A DNA stretch of 64,000 nucleotides from assembly GCA_937139405.1 (NCBI GenBank), contig CAKZPV010000049.1, forward strand, positions 1 through 64,000, written 5' to 3'. The DNA is from an uncultured Nitrospirota bacterium. Its GTDB lineage: Bacteria > Nitrospirota > Nitrospiria > Nitrospirales > UBA8639. Positions 3,813 to 42,253 of this stretch are shown here, piece by piece. Below the pieces are notes generated by a model. That model did not search any database, was not told the origin of the DNA, and was given only the letters and a program-made list of their open reading frames with translations. The translations under genes and the position numbers were made by a program. Numbering within the stretch: position 1 is the first letter of the stretch; each line of letters starts with the position of its first letter.

Positions 3813-4787
3813 ATGGCCTGCATGAGCAGTATGGATAAACAACTCAGCAATTCCTTCTCCACTGGCGGGGGTGGGAGCCATTTTGAAGTGCACGTCCAGG
3901 CGTCTTTTCTTGCATTAATGCTAGCAAGGGGATTTGCTCCCTGCTTACCATGCAAACCTATAAAGAAAATCAAATTACAAGGAAAATTTGCTGGTTTTCA
4001 AACAGATGATTTGATTGTCTTTACCCAGGACACTACCGGTAAGGGAGAGTGTAAATTACTTGGTCAGATTAAACATTCAATCACAATTACGGAAAACGAT
4101 TCTAAATTTGCAGAAGTGATCCAATCGGCTTGGCACGATTTTAATAATCCTGATGTATTTACAAAAAAGAAGGATGCCATTGCGCTGATTACTGGACCAC
4201 TAAGCGCTACAGACACCAGTGACGTAAGAATGATTCTTGAATGGGCACGACATTCAGAGAATTCGACGGAGTTTTTTGAAAAAGTTAATCTGGTAAATTT
4301 CAGTAGTGACGCGAAGCGAAGCAAGCTACAGGCATTCAAGGCAAACTTTAAAAAAGCAAATAACAACGAGGAAGTACTGGATGATGAAGCATTCGAATTC
4401 TTAAAGCACTTTCATCTTCTCGGTTATGACTTGGATATCAAGGCAGGTGTAACTTTGTCGCTTCTTCATTCATTGATAGGTCAGTATTCTCCGAATGGTG
4501 CACCTTCCCTTTGGGCTAGGATAGTAGAGGAGGTTTCCTCAGCAAATCAAAATGCGGGAACCATTAGCGCTGACAGTCTTCCAGAAGAATTAATAGCAGT
4601 TTTCAAGAAACCTCCCGTTGAGACCATACCTGAAAGTTTTGTGAAACCTAAAACGCCTAAACCTCATCAATCCTGGGCAAATCAAGAGGAAGTTAAAGCA
4701 TTAACAACAGCCATGCTTTTAGGTAAATGGCAAGAAACCAAGGAAGCAGACGTTGAAATAATTACGAGGCTCATCGATGGATTATAA
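3813..4787 (+). CDS. Cap4/DUF4297-like dsDNA endonuclease-domain protein
   Basis: A 324-residue protein whose N-terminus resembles the dsDNA-nuclease domain of Cap4-type defence effectors (DUF4297). Visible are a glycine run, then HFEVHVQASF (E25), LQGKFAGFQTDDLIVF (D65/D66) and LLGQIKHSI (Q85-x-K87). This spacing fits a PD-(D/E)xK nuclease with a Q-x-K variant. The rest (about 100-324) is helical and polar with no recognisable motif; no Walker A is present. The gene overlaps the next by 11 bp in a different frame. From memory, related proteins exist as one long chain covering both genes, so this may be the 5' part of a frameshifted gene. ATG at 3813 is used; M4 and M7 are alternatives. A defence role is inferred from the domain and setting. 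Confidence 0.65.
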   Translation: MACMSSMDKQLSNSFSTGGGGSHFEVHVQASFLALMLARGFAPCLPCKPIKKIKLQGKFAGFQTDDLIVFTQDTTGKGECKLLGQIKHSITITENDSKFAEVIQSAWHDFNNPDVFTKKKDAIALITGPLSATDTSDVRMILEWARHSENSTEFFEKVNLVNFSSDAKRSKLQAFKANFKKANNNEEVLDDEAFEFLKHFHLLGYDLDIKAGVTLSLLHSLIGQYSPNGAPSLWARIVEEVSSANQNAGTISADSLPEELIAVFKKPPVETIPESFVKPKTPKPHQSWANQEEVKALTTAMLLGKWQETKEADVEIITRLIDGL

Positions 4788-7368
4788 TTCATGGATAGCC
4801 AGTCTCCGGGAAGTTCTTCAACAACATGATAATCCGCTTGTGCTGAGAAACGGCCATTGGGAAGTGGCTGATCGCAAAACCATATGGGATACATTGGGCC
4901 CCAGAATTTTCGATGCTCACCTTGACCGATTCAAGGATTTAGCCGTCGAGGTACTCACAGAACTAGACCCACAATTTCAACTACCTACTGAAGAACGTTA
5001 CGCCGCAAGCATCCATGGAAAAGTACTGAACCATTCTGAAGATCTACGTCAAGGCATAACTGAAACTTTGGCCTTACTGGGAAATCATGGAGATAAGTTA
5101 AACAATTGCACTCTTCATAAACCAAAAACTACAGCCACTATGGTAATTCATGAAATTTTCGAACAATCAGATTGGCAGCTTTGGGGCAGCCTCAATAATC
5201 TGTTGCCAATCTTGGCTGAAGCAGTACCGGGGGAGTTTTTAAACTCGGTTGAAAATGCCCTAAGGCAATCCCATTGCCCATTCGATGAACTTTTTTCACA
5301 GGAAGACAATGGCATTTGGGGACAGAATTACATGACCGGATTGCTCTGGGCCTTGGAGGTCTTAGCCTGGGATGAAGATCATTTGGGGCGAGTGGCCTTA
5401 ATTTTAGCCGAATTAGCCTCTCATGATCCTGGCGGTAACTGGGCAAACAGACCTGTGAACTCCCTATCAACCATCTTACTACCTTGGTATCCACAAACAC
5501 TGGCAGACATAAATAAACGCATTGCAGCCATTTATGGGATTAAAAACGATTTCCCCAATATTGCTTGGAAAGTTCTTCTCGCCTTATTGCCAAACTCGCA
5601 TCAAACGACATCCGGTGCATACAAGCCTCGTTGGCGCAACATCCTTTCTCAAGATTGGAAGCCTAAAGTTACTAACAAAGAATATTGGAAACAGGTTACT
5701 GGCTATGCAGAGCTTGCAGTAGAAATGGCCTCCCAAGATTTAAATAATCTTAACGAATTAGTTGGCAATCTTGATAATTTGGCCTCCCCATCTTTTGATG
5801 CAGTATTGGAATATCTTGCTTCGTCAGAAATCACTGAACTCCCAGAAAATCAACGACTGCCAATATGGACAAGCTTGACAGACTTTGCGAGGAAACACCG
5901 GCAGTTCGCAGATGCAAATTGGGCACTTGCCTCTGAGATCGTTTCTAGAATTGAGGATACAGCCGATAAATTGAAGCCAGCCAGTCCCGAAGGCCAGTAT
6001 CAACGACTTTTCACTAGTAGGTATTTTGACCTATATGAAGAGAACGGAAATTTTGAGGAGCAGCAACAGAAAATTAATGAAAAACGTCAGCAAGCTATTA
6101 AGGAGATTTTGCTTGCCGGAGATATTCAAGGAGTAATGGACTTTATTGAAAAAGTGGAATCACCAAGTCAAGTGGGTTTGGCGCTCGGATTGGTTGCTGA
6201 AAACGGAATAGATTCGTATTTACTTCCAGAATATTTGATCATTGAAAGTGACAAATATCGGCGTTTTGTTGGTGGATTTATTTGGAGTCGTTACCAGACA
6301 AAGGGATGGCCATGGGTCGATGGGCTAGATCGCTCTGCATGGTCTCTTTTACAGATTTCTCATTTTCTGACTTCTTTACCCTTCAAGGGTGACACATGGA
6401 ATCGTGCCAATGAATGGTTAGGAGAGTCTGAGAACATTTACTGGGAAAAGGTACTAGTAAATCCTTACCAATCTGATAATGATCTCCTACACGCCATCGA
6501 CAAACTGCTCGAAGCTTCACGTCCTTATGCAGCACTTGATTGCTTAAATTATCGATTAATTAATCAATTGCCGCTAGATAGTGCACGAGCAATTCGAGCT
6601 CTCCTTGATTCGTCAACTTCCCCAGAACCGTCTCTGCCTATGGATTCCTATACTATTACGAAACTCATAGAGGCATTACAGAGCAATCCTCACGCTGATC
6701 AAGATGACCTATTTAAAGTTGAATGGGCCTACCTCTCTTTATTGGTTAGTCCTGGAAGGAATGTAAGACCAATTTTTCTTGAAACACAGCTAGCTACCCA
6801 ACCAGATTTTTTCTGCCAACTGATCCGTTTTATTTACCGTTCTAAAAATGAAAAAATAAGTCATAAGGAACCAAATGAGAAAGAGAAAGCCAATGCCATG
6901 AATGCCTATAGGCTTCTGGATAAATGGAAAAGGCCACCAGGGCTTCAACCAGATGGCAGTTTTTTGGATCAAAATTTTGAAGATTGGATTGATAGTGTTA
7001 AGCAGCAGTGTTCGGAATCGGGACATTTCGAAGTCGCCATGAAAAAAATAGGAGAGGTCTTATTTTATTGCCCGCCAAATCCCCAGGGACTCTGGATCGT
7101 AAAGGCAGCAGCCAACACATTAAATGCCAAAGACGCTGATGACATGAGACGCGGATTTGGGATGGAAGCATATAATTCCAGAGGTGTGCATTCGGTTGAT
7201 CCAAGTGGATCGCCTGAACGTGCGCTGGCAGAACAATGGCGACAAAAAGCAGATGCGGTAGAAGTTGCGGGGTTTGTCAGATTCGCAGCTACTTTAAAAG
7301 AACTAGCAGAGACTTATTATCGTGAGGCCGAGTCAGTCGTAGCAAGATATAAGTCAGAAAGCAATTAA
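4777..7368 (+). CDS. large protein of unknown function, partner or C-terminal part of the nuclease protein upstream
   Basis: An 863-residue, largely alpha-helical, Trp- and Leu-rich protein with no signal peptide, no membrane segment and no P-loop that I can find. Its ATG overlaps the end of the nuclease gene (ATGGATTATAA contains both the start and the other frame's TAA). Conserved-looking blocks include ERYAASIHGKVL, LASHDPGGNWANRPVNSL and DLYEENGNFEEQQ. I remember this family as the C-terminal region of about 1,200-residue proteins that begin with a DUF4297-like nuclease, but cannot check it here. It may act as a sensor or scaffold; I assign no enzymatic role. The frame is intact to its own stop, with no sign of further decay. 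Translational coupling to the upstream gene is likely if the split is real. Confidence 0.6.
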   Translation: MDYNSWIASLREVLQQHDNPLVLRNGHWEVADRKTIWDTLGPRIFDAHLDRFKDLAVEVLTELDPQFQLPTEERYAASIHGKVLNHSEDLRQGITETLALLGNHGDKLNNCTLHKPKTTATMVIHEIFEQSDWQLWGSLNNLLPILAEAVPGEFLNSVENALRQSHCPFDELFSQEDNGIWGQNYMTGLLWALEVLAWDEDHLGRVALILAELASHDPGGNWANRPVNSLSTILLPWYPQTLADINKRIAAIYGIKNDFPNIAWKVLLALLPNSHQTTSGAYKPRWRNILSQDWKPKVTNKEYWKQVTGYAELAVEMASQDLNNLNELVGNLDNLASPSFDAVLEYLASSEITELPENQRLPIWTSLTDFARKHRQFADANWALASEIVSRIEDTADKLKPASPEGQYQRLFTSRYFDLYEENGNFEEQQQKINEKRQQAIKEILLAGDIQGVMDFIEKVESPSQVGLALGLVAENGIDSYLLPEYLIIESDKYRRFVGGFIWSRYQTKGWPWVDGLDRSAWSLLQISHFLTSLPFKGDTWNRANEWLGESENIYWEKVLVNPYQSDNDLLHAIDKLLEASRPYAALDCLNYRLINQLPLDSARAIRALLDSSTSPEPSLPMDSYTITKLIEALQSNPHADQDDLFKVEWAYLSLLVSPGRNVRPIFLETQLATQPDFFCQLIRFIYRSKNEKISHKEPNEKEKANAMNAYRLLDKWKRPPGLQPDGSFLDQNFEDWIDSVKQQCSESGHFEVAMKKIGEVLFYCPPNPQGLWIVKAAANTLNAKDADDMRRGFGMEAYNSRGVHSVDPSGSPERALAEQWRQKADAVEVAGFVRFAATLKELAETYYREAESVVARYKSESN

Positions 7369-8359: not shown

Positions 8360-9694
8360 TTACCATGGGGTATTGAGGTCTTCATCATCATCATCTGCAG
8401 GAGGAGAATTTGTGGAGCGATAATACTTGCGCCCTTCTAATTCTTTTGGAAGATGAGATTGGGCTTTCGCACCCTTTGGATCATCATGGGCATAGCGGTA
8501 GTCTTTCCCATAATCTAAATCCTTCATCAACGAAGTGACCGCATTCCGCAAATGTAGCGGCACCGGCAGGTTACCTTTTTCCTTGGCATCTTTTCTCGCA
8601 GCTAAAATTCCAGCATACGATGCATTGCTTTTAGGTGCAGAGGATAAATAGGTCACCCCATGAGCCAGATTAATTTGCGCTTCAGGCAACCCTATGGCTT
8701 CCACCGCATGAAAGACAGCCGAGGCAATCACCAGCGCCTGGGAATCCACCATCCCAACATCCTCAGAAGCAAAAATTATCATGCGCCGTGCGATAAATTT
8801 CGGATCTTCCCCCCCTTCTAACATTCTCGCCAGCCAATACAGCGCTCCATCCGGATCGGAATCCCGCATGCTTTTTATGAAGGCCGAAATGAGATTGTAA
8901 TGCTCTTCCCCATCCCGGTCGTAGCGTAAGGCCTTTTGCTTCAGAGACTTTTCGACCTGAGGCTTGTCAATGATGGTAGGTTTGCCAGTTGCTGCATATT
9001 GGCTAACGACAAATTCCAGACCCGTTAACATCGAACGCGCATCACCATTACCATACCCAATCAACAGATGTTTAGCCTCAGAAGTGAGCGAGACATGCGA
9101 AGATCCGAGTCCCCGTTTGATATCTGAAAGTGTACGATCTAATATCTGCCCGAGCGCCTCTTCGTTTAAGGAATTGAGGACCACCACCATGGACCGAGAC
9201 AACAAGGGGGCAATCACTTCAAATGAAGGGTTCTGGGTAGTGGCCCCAATGAGAGTGATATCTCCTCGTTCGACATACGGAAGAAAGGCATCTTGTTGGG
9301 CTTTATTGAATCGATGAATTTCATCAACAAAGAGAAGCGTGCGTTGTCCTGACACTGTTCGACGTTGTTCCGCCATCTTCAGCAGGCCACGAAGTTCAGG
9401 CACACCACTGAGCACGGCTGAGAAGGGCACGAATGTCGCTTGGGTTTTCTTGGCAATGAGATTCGCCAGCGTCGTCTTCCCCGTCCCTGGTGGCCCCCAC
9501 AGAATAAGCGAGGGGACTCGATCTTGTTCAATGGCTATGCGCAACGGCTGATCTTCGGCCAGTACTTCGGCTTGCCCCACAAACTGATCAAACTCTAGCG
9601 GGCGCATCCGATCTGCTAAGGGAGCTTGCCGATGATCTTGAGGTTCGGATTTTGGAAACAGATCAGCCTGAGATTGAGAATCGAATAATTCCAT
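8360..9694 (-). CDS. rarA: replication-associated recombination protein A (AAA+ ATPase)
   Basis: RarA (MgsA) is a clamp-loader-like AAA+ ATPase that acts at stalled replication forks. The 444-residue length is normal. Walker A GPPGTGKTT lies at 67-75 and Walker B LLFVDEIHRF at 120-129, followed by the family's NKAQQD. Sensor regions (GATTQNPSFEV) and the C-terminal tetramerisation domain (HAVEAIGLPEAQINLAHG) are present. The C-terminus ends in an acidic tail. A second diverged copy of its last about 100 bp lies about 970 bp further on, beyond the toxin-antitoxin pair. Confidence 0.96.
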   Translation of the reverse strand: MELFDSQSQADLFPKSEPQDHRQAPLADRMRPLEFDQFVGQAEVLAEDQPLRIAIEQDRVPSLILWGPPGTGKTTLANLIAKKTQATFVPFSAVLSGVPELRGLLKMAEQRRTVSGQRTLLFVDEIHRFNKAQQDAFLPYVERGDITLIGATTQNPSFEVIAPLLSRSMVVVLNSLNEEALGQILDRTLSDIKRGLGSSHVSLTSEAKHLLIGYGNGDARSMLTGLEFVVSQYAATGKPTIIDKPQVEKSLKQKALRYDRDGEEHYNLISAFIKSMRDSDPDGALYWLARMLEGGEDPKFIARRMIIFASEDVGMVDSQALVIASAVFHAVEAIGLPEAQINLAHGVTYLSSAPKSNASYAGILAARKDAKEKGNLPVPLHLRNAVTSLMKDLDYGKDYRYAHDDPKGAKAQSHLPKELEGRKYYRSTNSPPADDDDEDLNTPW

Positions 9695-9892: not shown

Positions 9893-10085
9893 TCCGACGC
9901 CTGCTGTCTGGCCTATGGGAAGGACGCTCTCAATAACTGGCGGGCCTTGTTTGAGCAGAGCGAGTTGGTCCGCCTTCTTTAAGCTAGCGTCCGTCCTACC
10001 CAATTAAGTCAGACAGGGCGTCAATGGTTTTGGGTCCTTTTCCCGAAAGAAAAGGACCTCGGCTGCCGGGCCGAAACCCGGCAAC
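9893..10085 (+). repeat. structured dispersed repeat, copy 1 of 2 (193 bp)
   Basis: Matches 41374-41566 over the same 193-bp length. It contains an outer inverted repeat GGACGC (9922-9927)/GCGTCC (9987-9992) enclosing GGCGGGCC (9939-9946)/GGTCCGCC (9967-9974). Two tight hairpins follow: GGTCCTTTTC-CCGAAA-GAAAAGGACC (10033-10058) and TGCCGGG-CCGAAA-CCCGGCA (10064-10083). Both have the loop CCGAAA. Against copy 2, stem positions change in compensating pairs. It occupies most of the rarA-hydrolase intergenic region; the sequence on either side (9695-9892 and 10086-10240) shows nothing else I recognise. Similar tandem-hairpin repeats occur in other bacteria as far as I recall, but I know no name for this one. 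Confidence 0.85.
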
Positions 10086-10256: not shown

Positions 10257-11051
10257 GTGAAAACCGTTATTGATGGCATGACAGTTGGATATACCGACGA
10301 CGGGAATGGCACACCTCTTATCTTCATCCATGCCTTTCCCCTTTCCAAATCCATGTGGCTACCGCAAGTCGATGTCCTGAAAGAGGCCTATCGAGTCATC
10401 ACCATTGACCTTGGAGGACATGGAGACTCCGATATCGTGCCATGGAATGATTCGTTAGACGGGTATGCCAAGAATATCATCCGCCTACTTGATCATCTCG
10501 AGATTACCCAAGCCGTATTTGTGGGCTTGTCGATGGGCGGGTATACCCTCTTTTCGATCTATCGACATTATGCAAATCGGGTGAAAGCCATAGTCTTAGC
10601 CGATACGAGGGCTCAAGCGGATAGCGAGGAAGGGCAAGCCGGGCGTCAGTCAATGGCGGAAGTGGCTTTCAAAGATGGGGCATCAGCCATTGCCAGTCTC
10701 ATGCTTCCTAAACTTCTGGCGCCTGCTACCATTGAACAGCGTCCTGAAATTGTGGAGGAAGTTCGGCAAATGATTCTTCAAACTCCAACGGCCGGAATTG
10801 TTGTCGACTTGGTAGCCATGGCTGCCAGGCCCGATTCTACTGATCTTCTTTCGACGATAACCTGTCCAACTTTGGTGATAGTTGGGGAAGAGGATCAAGC
10901 CACTCCCGTCGCAGAGTCGCAATACATAGCCAAGCGAATTCCTGGGTCAACATTCGTGACTATTCCTCAAGCTGGGCATCTCTCCAATTTCGAACAACCC
11001 GTCGTCTTCAATCAAGCCATGCAATCCTTTTTGGAGCGACATGAGCTATGA
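10257..11051 (+). CDS. alpha/beta-fold hydrolase
   Basis: A 264-residue single-domain cytoplasmic hydrolase. The catalytic triad is visible: nucleophile S92 in GLSMGG, D213 in VGEEDQATP and H241 in PQAGHLSN; the oxyanion-hole segment is FIHAFPLS near residue 24. These features resemble the esterase/3-oxoadipate enol-lactonase-like/chloroperoxidase-like branch, but the substrate cannot be assigned. Translation starts at GTG 10257, chosen because a strong AAGGAGG lies at 10245-10251, just upstream. No pathway genes adjoin it. Confidence 0.88.
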   Translation: MKTVIDGMTVGYTDDGNGTPLIFIHAFPLSKSMWLPQVDVLKEAYRVITIDLGGHGDSDIVPWNDSLDGYAKNIIRLLDHLEITQAVFVGLSMGGYTLFSIYRHYANRVKAIVLADTRAQADSEEGQAGRQSMAEVAFKDGASAIASLMLPKLLAPATIEQRPEIVEEVRQMILQTPTAGIVVDLVAMAARPDSTDLLSTITCPTLVIVGEEDQATPVAESQYIAKRIPGSTFVTIPQAGHLSNFEQPVVFNQAMQSFLERHEL

Positions 11052-40463: not shown

Positions 40464-41117
40464 TCATGGTTTTATCCGAACGTGGGGTTTTGACTGAGGA
40501 TTCGCTACACTTCGGAACTTCTCGATCATTCCAACAACTCGATGATTAGAAAATGTATGTTTATAGCGAACTCCATTTAGTTCGACCACGAAGTGGAATT
40601 CGCTCCACTGTTGCATAAAATCATGTTCTTTCAAATACGCTTCGTAACCCTGCGCCCTGTCGCAGAGGGGGATCATTATTTGGAAATCGGCACCTGGCGG
40701 TACACCGGTTGTCGAAGATGGCAACACTGGGATCCCGTCAATTACGAAATGTAATGGCTCTGAGTTGGAGTTATTAATATTGGAAACCAAGTGACCCTGA
40801 ATGTTGTTAAGCCCTTTACTTGAGCGATTTCGACCATCGGCTTGAAAGCTGATGACCCGTAAATCTCCACCGCCTCCCACCATTCCAAGAAAACTTTCAA
40901 AATTCCACACAACCGGTTCGCGCCATTTGGACCAAACTAGAAGCGAGCCTCCAAGCATAACGACAAAAACCGAAATGCCTCCCCAGAGCGGGTTTTCTTG
41001 AATCAGATCCAAGGCAAATGCGAACGAGCTTAGGATTACCCAAGCGATAATTTTGCTCCATACAGGGTCATTCCAAATTCGTTGCCAATTCATAACATGT
41101 ACGAATAGTTTCAACAC
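40464..41117 (-). CDS. membrane-anchored protein of unknown function
   Basis: A 217-residue protein with two hydrophobic helices near the N-terminus (about 21-38 and 45-62) and a C-terminal soluble beta-rich domain (about 75-217). The soluble part has no motif I recognise. Start M1 at 41117 or M9 (MNWQRIW). It is monocistronic beside the second structured repeat. Confidence 0.6.
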   Translation of the reverse strand: MLKLFVHVMNWQRIWNDPVWSKIIAWVILSSFAFALDLIQENPLWGGISVFVVMLGGSLLVWSKWREPVVWNFESFLGMVGGGGDLRVISFQADGRNRSSKGLNNIQGHLVSNINNSNSEPLHFVIDGIPVLPSSTTGVPPGADFQIMIPLCDRAQGYEAYLKEHDFMQQWSEFHFVVELNGVRYKHTFSNHRVVGMIEKFRSVANPQSKPHVRIKP

Positions 41118-41373: not shown

Positions 41374-41566
41374 TCCGACGCCTGCCGCCCGTCCCCATTT
41401 GACGGACGCTCTTATCTCCCTGCGGGCCTTGTTTGAGCATAGCGAGTTGGTCCGCTCTCCCGTTGTTTGCGTCCGTCAAATCTAATAAGGACGGACGGGG
41501 CGTCAATGGTTTTGGGTCCTTTTGCCGAAACAAAAGGACCTCGGCTACCGGGCCGAAACCCGGTAT
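41374..41566 (+). repeat. structured dispersed repeat, copy 2 of 2 (193 bp)
   Basis: Same length and order as 9893-10085. Outer stem GACGGACGC (41401-41409)/GCGTCCGTC (41469-41477) encloses GCGGGCC (41422-41428)/GGTCCGC (41449-41455). The two tandem hairpins are GGTCCTTTTG-CCGAAA-CAAAAGGACC (41515-41540) and TACCGGG-CCGAAA-CCCGGTA (41546-41565). Relative to copy 1, closing pair C-G has become G-C in the first and G-C has become A-T in the second. The flanks 41118-41373 and 41567-41791 hold no gene I can support. Confidence 0.85.
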
Positions 41567-41791: not shown

Positions 41792-42253
41792 ATGCTCTGG
41801 TGGCATTGGTCAATTTTAGGGTTCAGTCTCATAGGAATCGAAATCCTTACCTTAGGTGGTCTAGGAAATTTCTATTTTCTTTTCTTTGGGATGGCAGCAT
41901 TGATGGTTACTGGACTGACCTGGTCTGGGCTTGTTGAGGCTGCCTGGCTGCAATGGTTTCTCTTCGCCATCTTGGGCATCATTTCTCTCCTTGTGATGAA
42001 AAAACCCCTGCAGAATAAACGAACCCTGAATGGAAATGACGAGCCCGACGTCGATTCGATGGTGGGGGAAATTGCGAAAGTACTGGAACCTCTTGAGCCC
42101 CAGGCTATGGGAAAAGTTGAACTTCGTGGGTCGACTTGGAACGCCCGTAATGCCGGAGAGAGTCTCCTCGATACGAATTCCATCGCCAAGATTGTGCGTG
42201 TGGATGGTCTCACAGTATGGATTCAAGCCGAATCGCTCACACAGGAGGAATAA
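41792..42253 (+). CDS. NfeD-like membrane protein
   Basis: A 153-residue protein with three N-terminal membrane helices (SILGFSLIGIEILTL, FYFLFFGMAALMVTGL, WFLFAILGIISLLVM) and a C-terminal OB-fold domain (VELRGSTWNARN). NfeD proteins pair with SPFH/stomatin proteins; the partner starts 2 bp later. AAAGGAG precedes the ATG. Together they likely organise membrane microdomains or a protease complex. Confidence 0.92.
   Translation: MLWWHWSILGFSLIGIEILTLGGLGNFYFLFFGMAALMVTGLTWSGLVEAAWLQWFLFAILGIISLLVMKKPLQNKRTLNGNDEPDVDSMVGEIAKVLEPLEPQAMGKVELRGSTWNARNAGESLLDTNSIAKIVRVDGLTVWIQAESLTQEE

Follow-up and report, generated by a model that had tools for sequence, protein, structure and literature searches.

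An intergenic repeat of Nitrospirales with a covarying fold, two proposed 3' pseudoknots and a central motif that recurs in other bacterial phyla

Bacteria commonly carry short palindromic repeats, for most of which the mover is unknown. The reviewed MITE-like intergenic repeats, among them ERIC/RU-1, Correia/NEMIS, RUP, YPAL and CIR, are non-autonomous, multicopy sequences of 100 to 200 bp whose single strand is base paired over a long stretch, whose mover is in most cases unknown, each family being listed for a single genus or a small number of genera (PMC2229807). For ERIC repeats, transcription and effects on mRNA stability have been reported (PMC2229807). REPs are defined as palindromes of 20 to 40 bp, one end of which bears GTAG (or CGTC), and the CGTC REPs were reported to lack a dedicated transposase (PMC3733652). 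The element analyzed here is, in its working, closest to the ERIC/Correia-type MITE-like repeats and to the REPs, and by membership it is neither, since a link to RAYT, the size and tag of REPs and a target duplication were all tested for and not found. It resembles the MITE-like repeats in size, intergenic position, copy number, long base-paired single strand and non-autonomy, and it is short, intergenic, multicopy, non-coding and highly base paired, as MITEs of the ERIC/Correia type are. Unlike them, it showed neither TA termini nor a target duplication, it carries a proposed two-pseudoknot 3' module outside its closing stem, and its motif spans many phyla; consistent terminal inverted repeats were not seen in it either. 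With REP/REPIN sequences of the GTAG and CGTC superfamilies (PMC3733652) it shares palindromic structure, intergenic position, many copies and occurrence in distant phyla, whereas its length of about 190 bp, its complex pseudoknotted fold, the missing GTAG tag and the missing Y1_Tnp link set it apart.

Two copies of the element lie in the window, i.e., the whole stretch of 64,000 nucleotides analyzed, which comes from an uncultured Nitrospirota bacterium. The original prediction placed them at 9893-10085 and 41374-41566, with 193 bases each, and these coordinates and the equal length hold; the extent of the element, however, is about 191 bp, because the common element stops at CCGGCA and the terminal two bases are therefore flank. 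It begins with TCCGACGCC at its 5' end and ends with CCGGCA at its 3' end. Copy 1 spans 9893-10083 (plus strand, R1 bit score 213) and copy 2 spans 41374-41565 (plus strand, R1 bit score 213.4). Copy 1 lies between a gene for a RarA-like ATPase (8360-9694, minus strand) and one for an alpha/beta-hydrolase-like protein (10257-11051, plus strand), both named from their translations, and copy 2 between the divergent genes 40464-41117 (minus strand) and 41792-42253 (plus strand). One reading frame across copy 2 is stop-free, yet it shows no sign of coding.

The fold has four stems, A to D, together with a three-base loop closed by a GC/GC mini-stem, the 3' hairpins 1 and 2, and the two proposed pseudoknots; its statistics come from 92 full copies, which represent three species. 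In copy 1, all on the plus strand, the outer stem A joins GACGCC (9896-9901) to GGCGTC (10017-10022), with 88 to 91 of the 92 copies paired at each position. Position 17:119 of stem B (9904-9913 with 10007-10016) is TA in 58 copies and CG in 29, and 15:121 is mostly unpaired; position 29:101 of stem C (9918-9927 with 9987-9996) is GC in 44, CG in 32 and TA in 8. Stem D (9940-9973, with 9940-9946 paired to 9967-9973) is topped by the conserved motif. Downstream lie the 10-bp hairpin 1 (10033-10058), where 142:165 is GC in 49 and CG in 31 copies and 144:163 is CG in 54 and AT in 35, and hairpin 2 (10064-10083), which forms the 3' limit of the element; both have the loop CCGAAA. The pair exchanges first noticed between the two window copies were recovered: in hairpin 1 the closing C-G of copy 1 (TTTTC-CCGAAA-GAAAA) is replaced by G-C in copy 2 (TTTTG-CCGAAA-CAAAA; 41515-41540, plus strand), and in hairpin 2 the second pair changes from G-C (TGCCGGG/CCCGGCA) to A-T (TACCGGG/CCCGGTA; 41546-41565, plus strand).

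Across the 92 copies, 93.3% of the cells are paired compared with 85.6% in shuffles, and double-sided changes occur in 36 of 61 pairs compared with 21.6 ± 2.0. The covariation score is 0.234, against 0.105 ± 0.003 after shuffling, and it does not exceed 0.073 in slid controls, so that the signal is lost when the 3' partners are slid; copies within one family are related, and none of these numbers counts independent events. The claim that folding is under selection, which had been drawn from two copies, is thus upheld by covariation over 92, and the family and its fold are well supported. With pseudoknot 1 excluded, G-T wobbles on the plus strand outnumber A-C mismatches (165 versus 83), which suggests that the plus strand, i.e., the TTTGAGC strand, is the one that folds.

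We propose that the loop of each 3' hairpin pairs with the bases immediately 5' of its own stem, giving two H-type pseudoknots. The loop CCGAAA is indeed common to both hairpins, as originally described, but it is probably not free. In pseudoknot 2 of copy 1, TCGG (10059-10062) faces the loop bases CCGA (10071-10074), and this pairing covaries inside the genus, with position 170:179 being GC in 36, CG in 13, TA in 11 and TG in 9 copies. Pseudoknot 1, in which TTTTG (10028-10032) would pair with CGAAA (10044-10048), has 97.6% of its cells paired and is almost invariant inside the genus, and its support is for that reason drawn from other taxa. There, loops and upstream segments such as CTTGATC/GATCAAG, CTTGAC/GTCAAG, CTTGAA/TTCAAG, GTCGCC/GGCGAC, GCGGCC/GGCCGC and TGGCC/GGCCA match each other. 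An earlier cross-phylum test with letter shuffles within each of 23 hairpin elements gave no signal (median p 0.6; none with p ≤ 0.05), and we judged it weak because short loops and segments often match again after shuffling. A permutation test, selected after that result and applied to 42 hairpins found by relaxed detection among the motif matches listed, gave 4.53 for loops against their own upstream segments and 3.65 ± 0.125 for loops permuted among elements, a value reached in 0 of 2000 permutations; the p-value is indicative, since the taxa behind some of the examples are related and a script chose the hairpins.

The segment singled out at the outset as the most conserved unpaired part is conserved but not wholly unpaired. 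It reads TTGTTTGAGC-NNN-GCGAGTT, with a near-invariant GC/GC mini-stem closing a three-base loop that varies (GNA, ANA or CNN); copy 1 has TTGTTTGAGC-AGA-GCGAGTT at 9947-9966 and copy 2 has TTGTTTGAGC-ATA-GCGAGTT at 41429-41448, both on the plus strand, and the motif is near-invariant in the copy alignment. GC-GNA-GC is an unusually stable DNA mini-hairpin; CNN loops are also used by this genus. In the window copies and at all motif loci, TTGAGCGA and AGCGAGTT are nearly mirror-symmetric, and because they are near-identical backwards a reversed-pattern control is not independent.

In at least nine bacterial phyla the central motif TTTGAGCGNAGCGAGTT caps long, imperfect palindromes. The pattern TGTTTGAGCGNAGCGAGTT matched at least 116 contigs, and the matches listed belong, by their record titles, to Pseudomonadota, Bacteroidota, Bacillota, Nitrospirota, Nitrospinota, Desulfobacterota, Patescibacteria, Acidobacteriota (Aminicenantes) and Cyanobacteriota (Gastranaerophilales). 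Of the 113 non-redundant sites listed, 109 have 12 or more predicted pairs across the motif, compared with 60 of 134 random windows, and folding at the listed matches had a median z of -3.2 relative to dinucleotide shuffles. Flavobacterium sufflavum has 28 sites, Flammeovirga sp. OC4 has 47 and Haemophilus aegyptius has 5; the motif was single in 2 of the 14 genomes counted. Among viral contigs, two patterns that required GGTTT downstream of the motif had no matches. Near the zot-like gene of some Vibrio contigs that resemble filamentous phages lies GTGTTTGAGCGNAGCGAGTT (L238:2380-2396 and L244:1779-1795, both minus strand), and a Vibrio tasmaniensis plasmid (L293; NZ_AP025512.1, 131959-140056) has the conserved stretch around GTGTTTGAGCGNAGCGAGTT near such a gene. 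In these cases about 60 bases on the upstream side are conserved, the downstream sequence varies, and the long palindrome is apparently missing.

The element recurs far beyond chance: 43 places in the 4.46-Mb genome match copy 1 (BLAST, E ≤ 0.001). The mapped copies fall between genes, a point that the original prediction had proposed to check, and the reading frames that cross them are translated repeat. All 21 genomes of the genus that were examined have matches, two further genera of the family have weaker ones, and the other 16 genomes of the order have none. A covariance model built on 27 copies gave 142 matches in the genomic regions searched, and in a phylum-wide draw its strong matches were confined to three genera, all of the same family; the same element also lies on Nitrospirales metagenome-bin contigs (L091 and L136). 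Copy 1 had no BLAST match among phages and plasmids. We found no description of the motif or the element in the literature searched, which comprised open-licence papers. Several contigs of this assembly have an element a few kilobases or less from their end (L043, which is G000:C36 with 4978 bases; L035, G000:C18; and L042, the start of G000:C48), and L043 bears an IS110-like transposase gene besides the element.

If the element were transcribed and served the host as a structured RNA, such as a small RNA or an mRNA-stability or processing element, duplicated many times and selected for that role, this would explain the pseudoknots, the strand-specific wobbles and the near-invariant motif, all of which are common in functional RNAs; ERIC repeats, with their reported transcription and effect on mRNA stability, offer a parallel (PMC2229807). 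We nevertheless consider this reading unlikely. The orientation of 104 copies relative to their neighbors is near random (32 convergent, 19 divergent, 24 and 29 tandem), and this want of a gene-orientation rule speaks against a leader or terminator that regulates in cis; copies are numerous, their number varies, and loci are not kept between sister species. A search of Rfam 15 at gathering and relaxed thresholds returned tRNA matches only, plus one chance snoRNA match far under threshold, and so assigns the element to no RNA family.

The genomes of two sister species, G010 and G019 (about 90% identity), differ in the presence or absence of the element at corresponding loci. The flanks are altered too at these loci, one difference being an internal deletion of a copy and others involving 100 to 200 extra flanking bases, and no clean empty site for an insertion was found among them. 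The clearest sign that the unit spreads comes from Flavobacterium sufflavum, in which ten copies are nearly identical in unrelated surroundings and have sharp ends, at GTCCTTAGC and, on the 3' side, exactly at the pseudoknot hairpin. A flank-word test detected no target duplication, either in 92 Nitrospirales copies (own 3.09, null 3.18) or in 9 Flavobacterium copies (own 3.89, null 3.54). The 5' terminal segment of the element pairs with bases 125-130 and not with the 3' terminus, and no consistent outer inverted repeat was found in the Flavobacterium copies. ATAAAAACGTCATT, tried as a terminal inverted repeat in Flavobacterium, did not rise above the reversed-pattern control and is the 3' extension of some copies; an extension of roughly 45 bp that ends with it is present in about 9 of the 28 Flavobacterium sufflavum copies (L378-L387). 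Some copies in the Nitrospirales genus retain a ACACAGAAAATCAC-like 3' extension.

The same genome holds a second subtype, in which nothing but the central motif and the 3' module agrees with the first; its other stems are different. Three times in one region, subtype 2 directly follows subtype 1 copies truncated within hairpin 1, as though an insertion or recombination had occurred at that point (L031:1913-2272 and 4571-4927; L032:1450-1808; G000:C32). Two subtypes with differing 5' domains and a common 3' module, like the termination of the Flavobacterium element at its 3' hairpin, are what one would expect of a SINE-like RNA that spreads by retrotransposition, with a reverse transcriptase recognizing its 3' hairpin module. 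RVT_1 has no match, however, in the complete, element-rich genomes G010, G019 and G128, target duplication is absent and 5' truncation does not predominate among partial copies, which makes this the least probable of the readings considered.

The original prediction left the choice between a structured RNA and a REP or other mobile DNA hairpin, and proposed a search for a RAYT transposase. A selected fold, intergenic position and variation between sister species bear out the general proposal; its REP/RAYT version, a REP-type repeat whose hairpins a RAYT (Y1 tyrosine transposase) recognizes as single-stranded DNA, fared badly. This genome does have three Y1_Tnp genes, and the element is palindromic, intergenic and present in high copy, as REPs are. 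Yet the motif is near only 1 of 30 Y1_Tnp loci, the element-rich complete genomes G019 and G128, and also G023 and G232, have no Y1_Tnp match, that of G014 is a mere fragment with three stops, and the element-free G021 and G024 hold 5 and 3 such genes. Together with the size and the missing tag, which depart from the REP definition (PMC3733652), these counts leave the RAYT reading a very slight chance, and RAYT as a requirement is largely refuted. Neither RAYT (Y1_Tnp) nor a recognizable reverse transcriptase is required, because element-rich complete genomes lack both.

Like integron attC sites, the element has a folded single strand, imperfect palindromes and one-orientation repeats beside toxin-antitoxin genes in islands. 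In such islands (L327 and L329, G010:C1:1399000-1450000; L336 and L338, G019:C1:3427000-3446000 and 3637000-3655000), many elements in one orientation are interleaved with toxin-antitoxin-like genes, and the contents differ between G010 and G019 at the same site. A recombination site that moves gene cassettes would account for same-orientation runs spaced 0.3 to 3 kb apart among HigBA-like, nucleotidyltransferase/HEPN-like, VapBC-like and small unknown genes, and for runs that differ between sister species at the same place. Unlike attC, though, the element is scattered genome-wide, most copies elsewhere being solitary among ordinary genes, and has no fixed orientation to its gene (upstream gene on the same strand in 56 cases, on the opposite strand in 48). 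The spacer sequence common to tandem copies can be explained by segmental duplication, and some of the same-orientation runs are accounted for by elements duplicated in tandem together with their spacers. We therefore regard an attC-like role as improbable.

The best explanation, to which we give a probability of roughly 0.55, is that the element is a non-autonomous mobile intergenic repeat whose plus strand, as single-stranded DNA or RNA, adopts a fixed fold with two pseudoknots and is moved in trans. The long stem, shut by GACGCC/GGCGTC, would present the conserved motif on its top, and 3' of it the two hairpins would pair their loops back upstream; motif and 3' pseudoknot may be the parts that a copying enzyme or the host machinery recognizes. 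Spread would serve the element itself and not the regulation of neighboring genes. No recurrent neighbor gene was found among the 116 motif loci listed, where the largest neighbor clusters resemble translated repeat DNA or common gene families; the element is therefore taken to be non-autonomous, and its mover would be supplied in trans. A bias relative to replication is a possible prediction of a single-stranded DNA mechanism. With the terminus assumed to lie opposite dnaA, 67 copies are head-on and 36 co-directional, and after clustering the bias is weak (32 head-on, 18 co-directional, p = 0.065). It is conceivable, if rather doubtful, that all these sequences form one ancient superfamily of mobile elements acting as folded single strands, with a TTTGAGC-NNN-GCGAGTT cap and a 3' H-type pseudoknot, distributed over most major phyla and moved by a mechanism that is neither RAYT, DDE/TIR nor reverse transcription.

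Beyond the earlier observation of two copies, what is new are the two pseudoknots and the relatives in other phyla. The element would account for spurious short open reading frames with the phrase LFERSEL/F, and it could become a new Rfam family. Its pseudoknotted fold is precise and testable, its motif is fixed, and relatives occur in the culturable Flavobacterium, Flammeovirga and Variovorax; the family could thus help to find the copier of such elements and the reason why the motif has been conserved over such distances.
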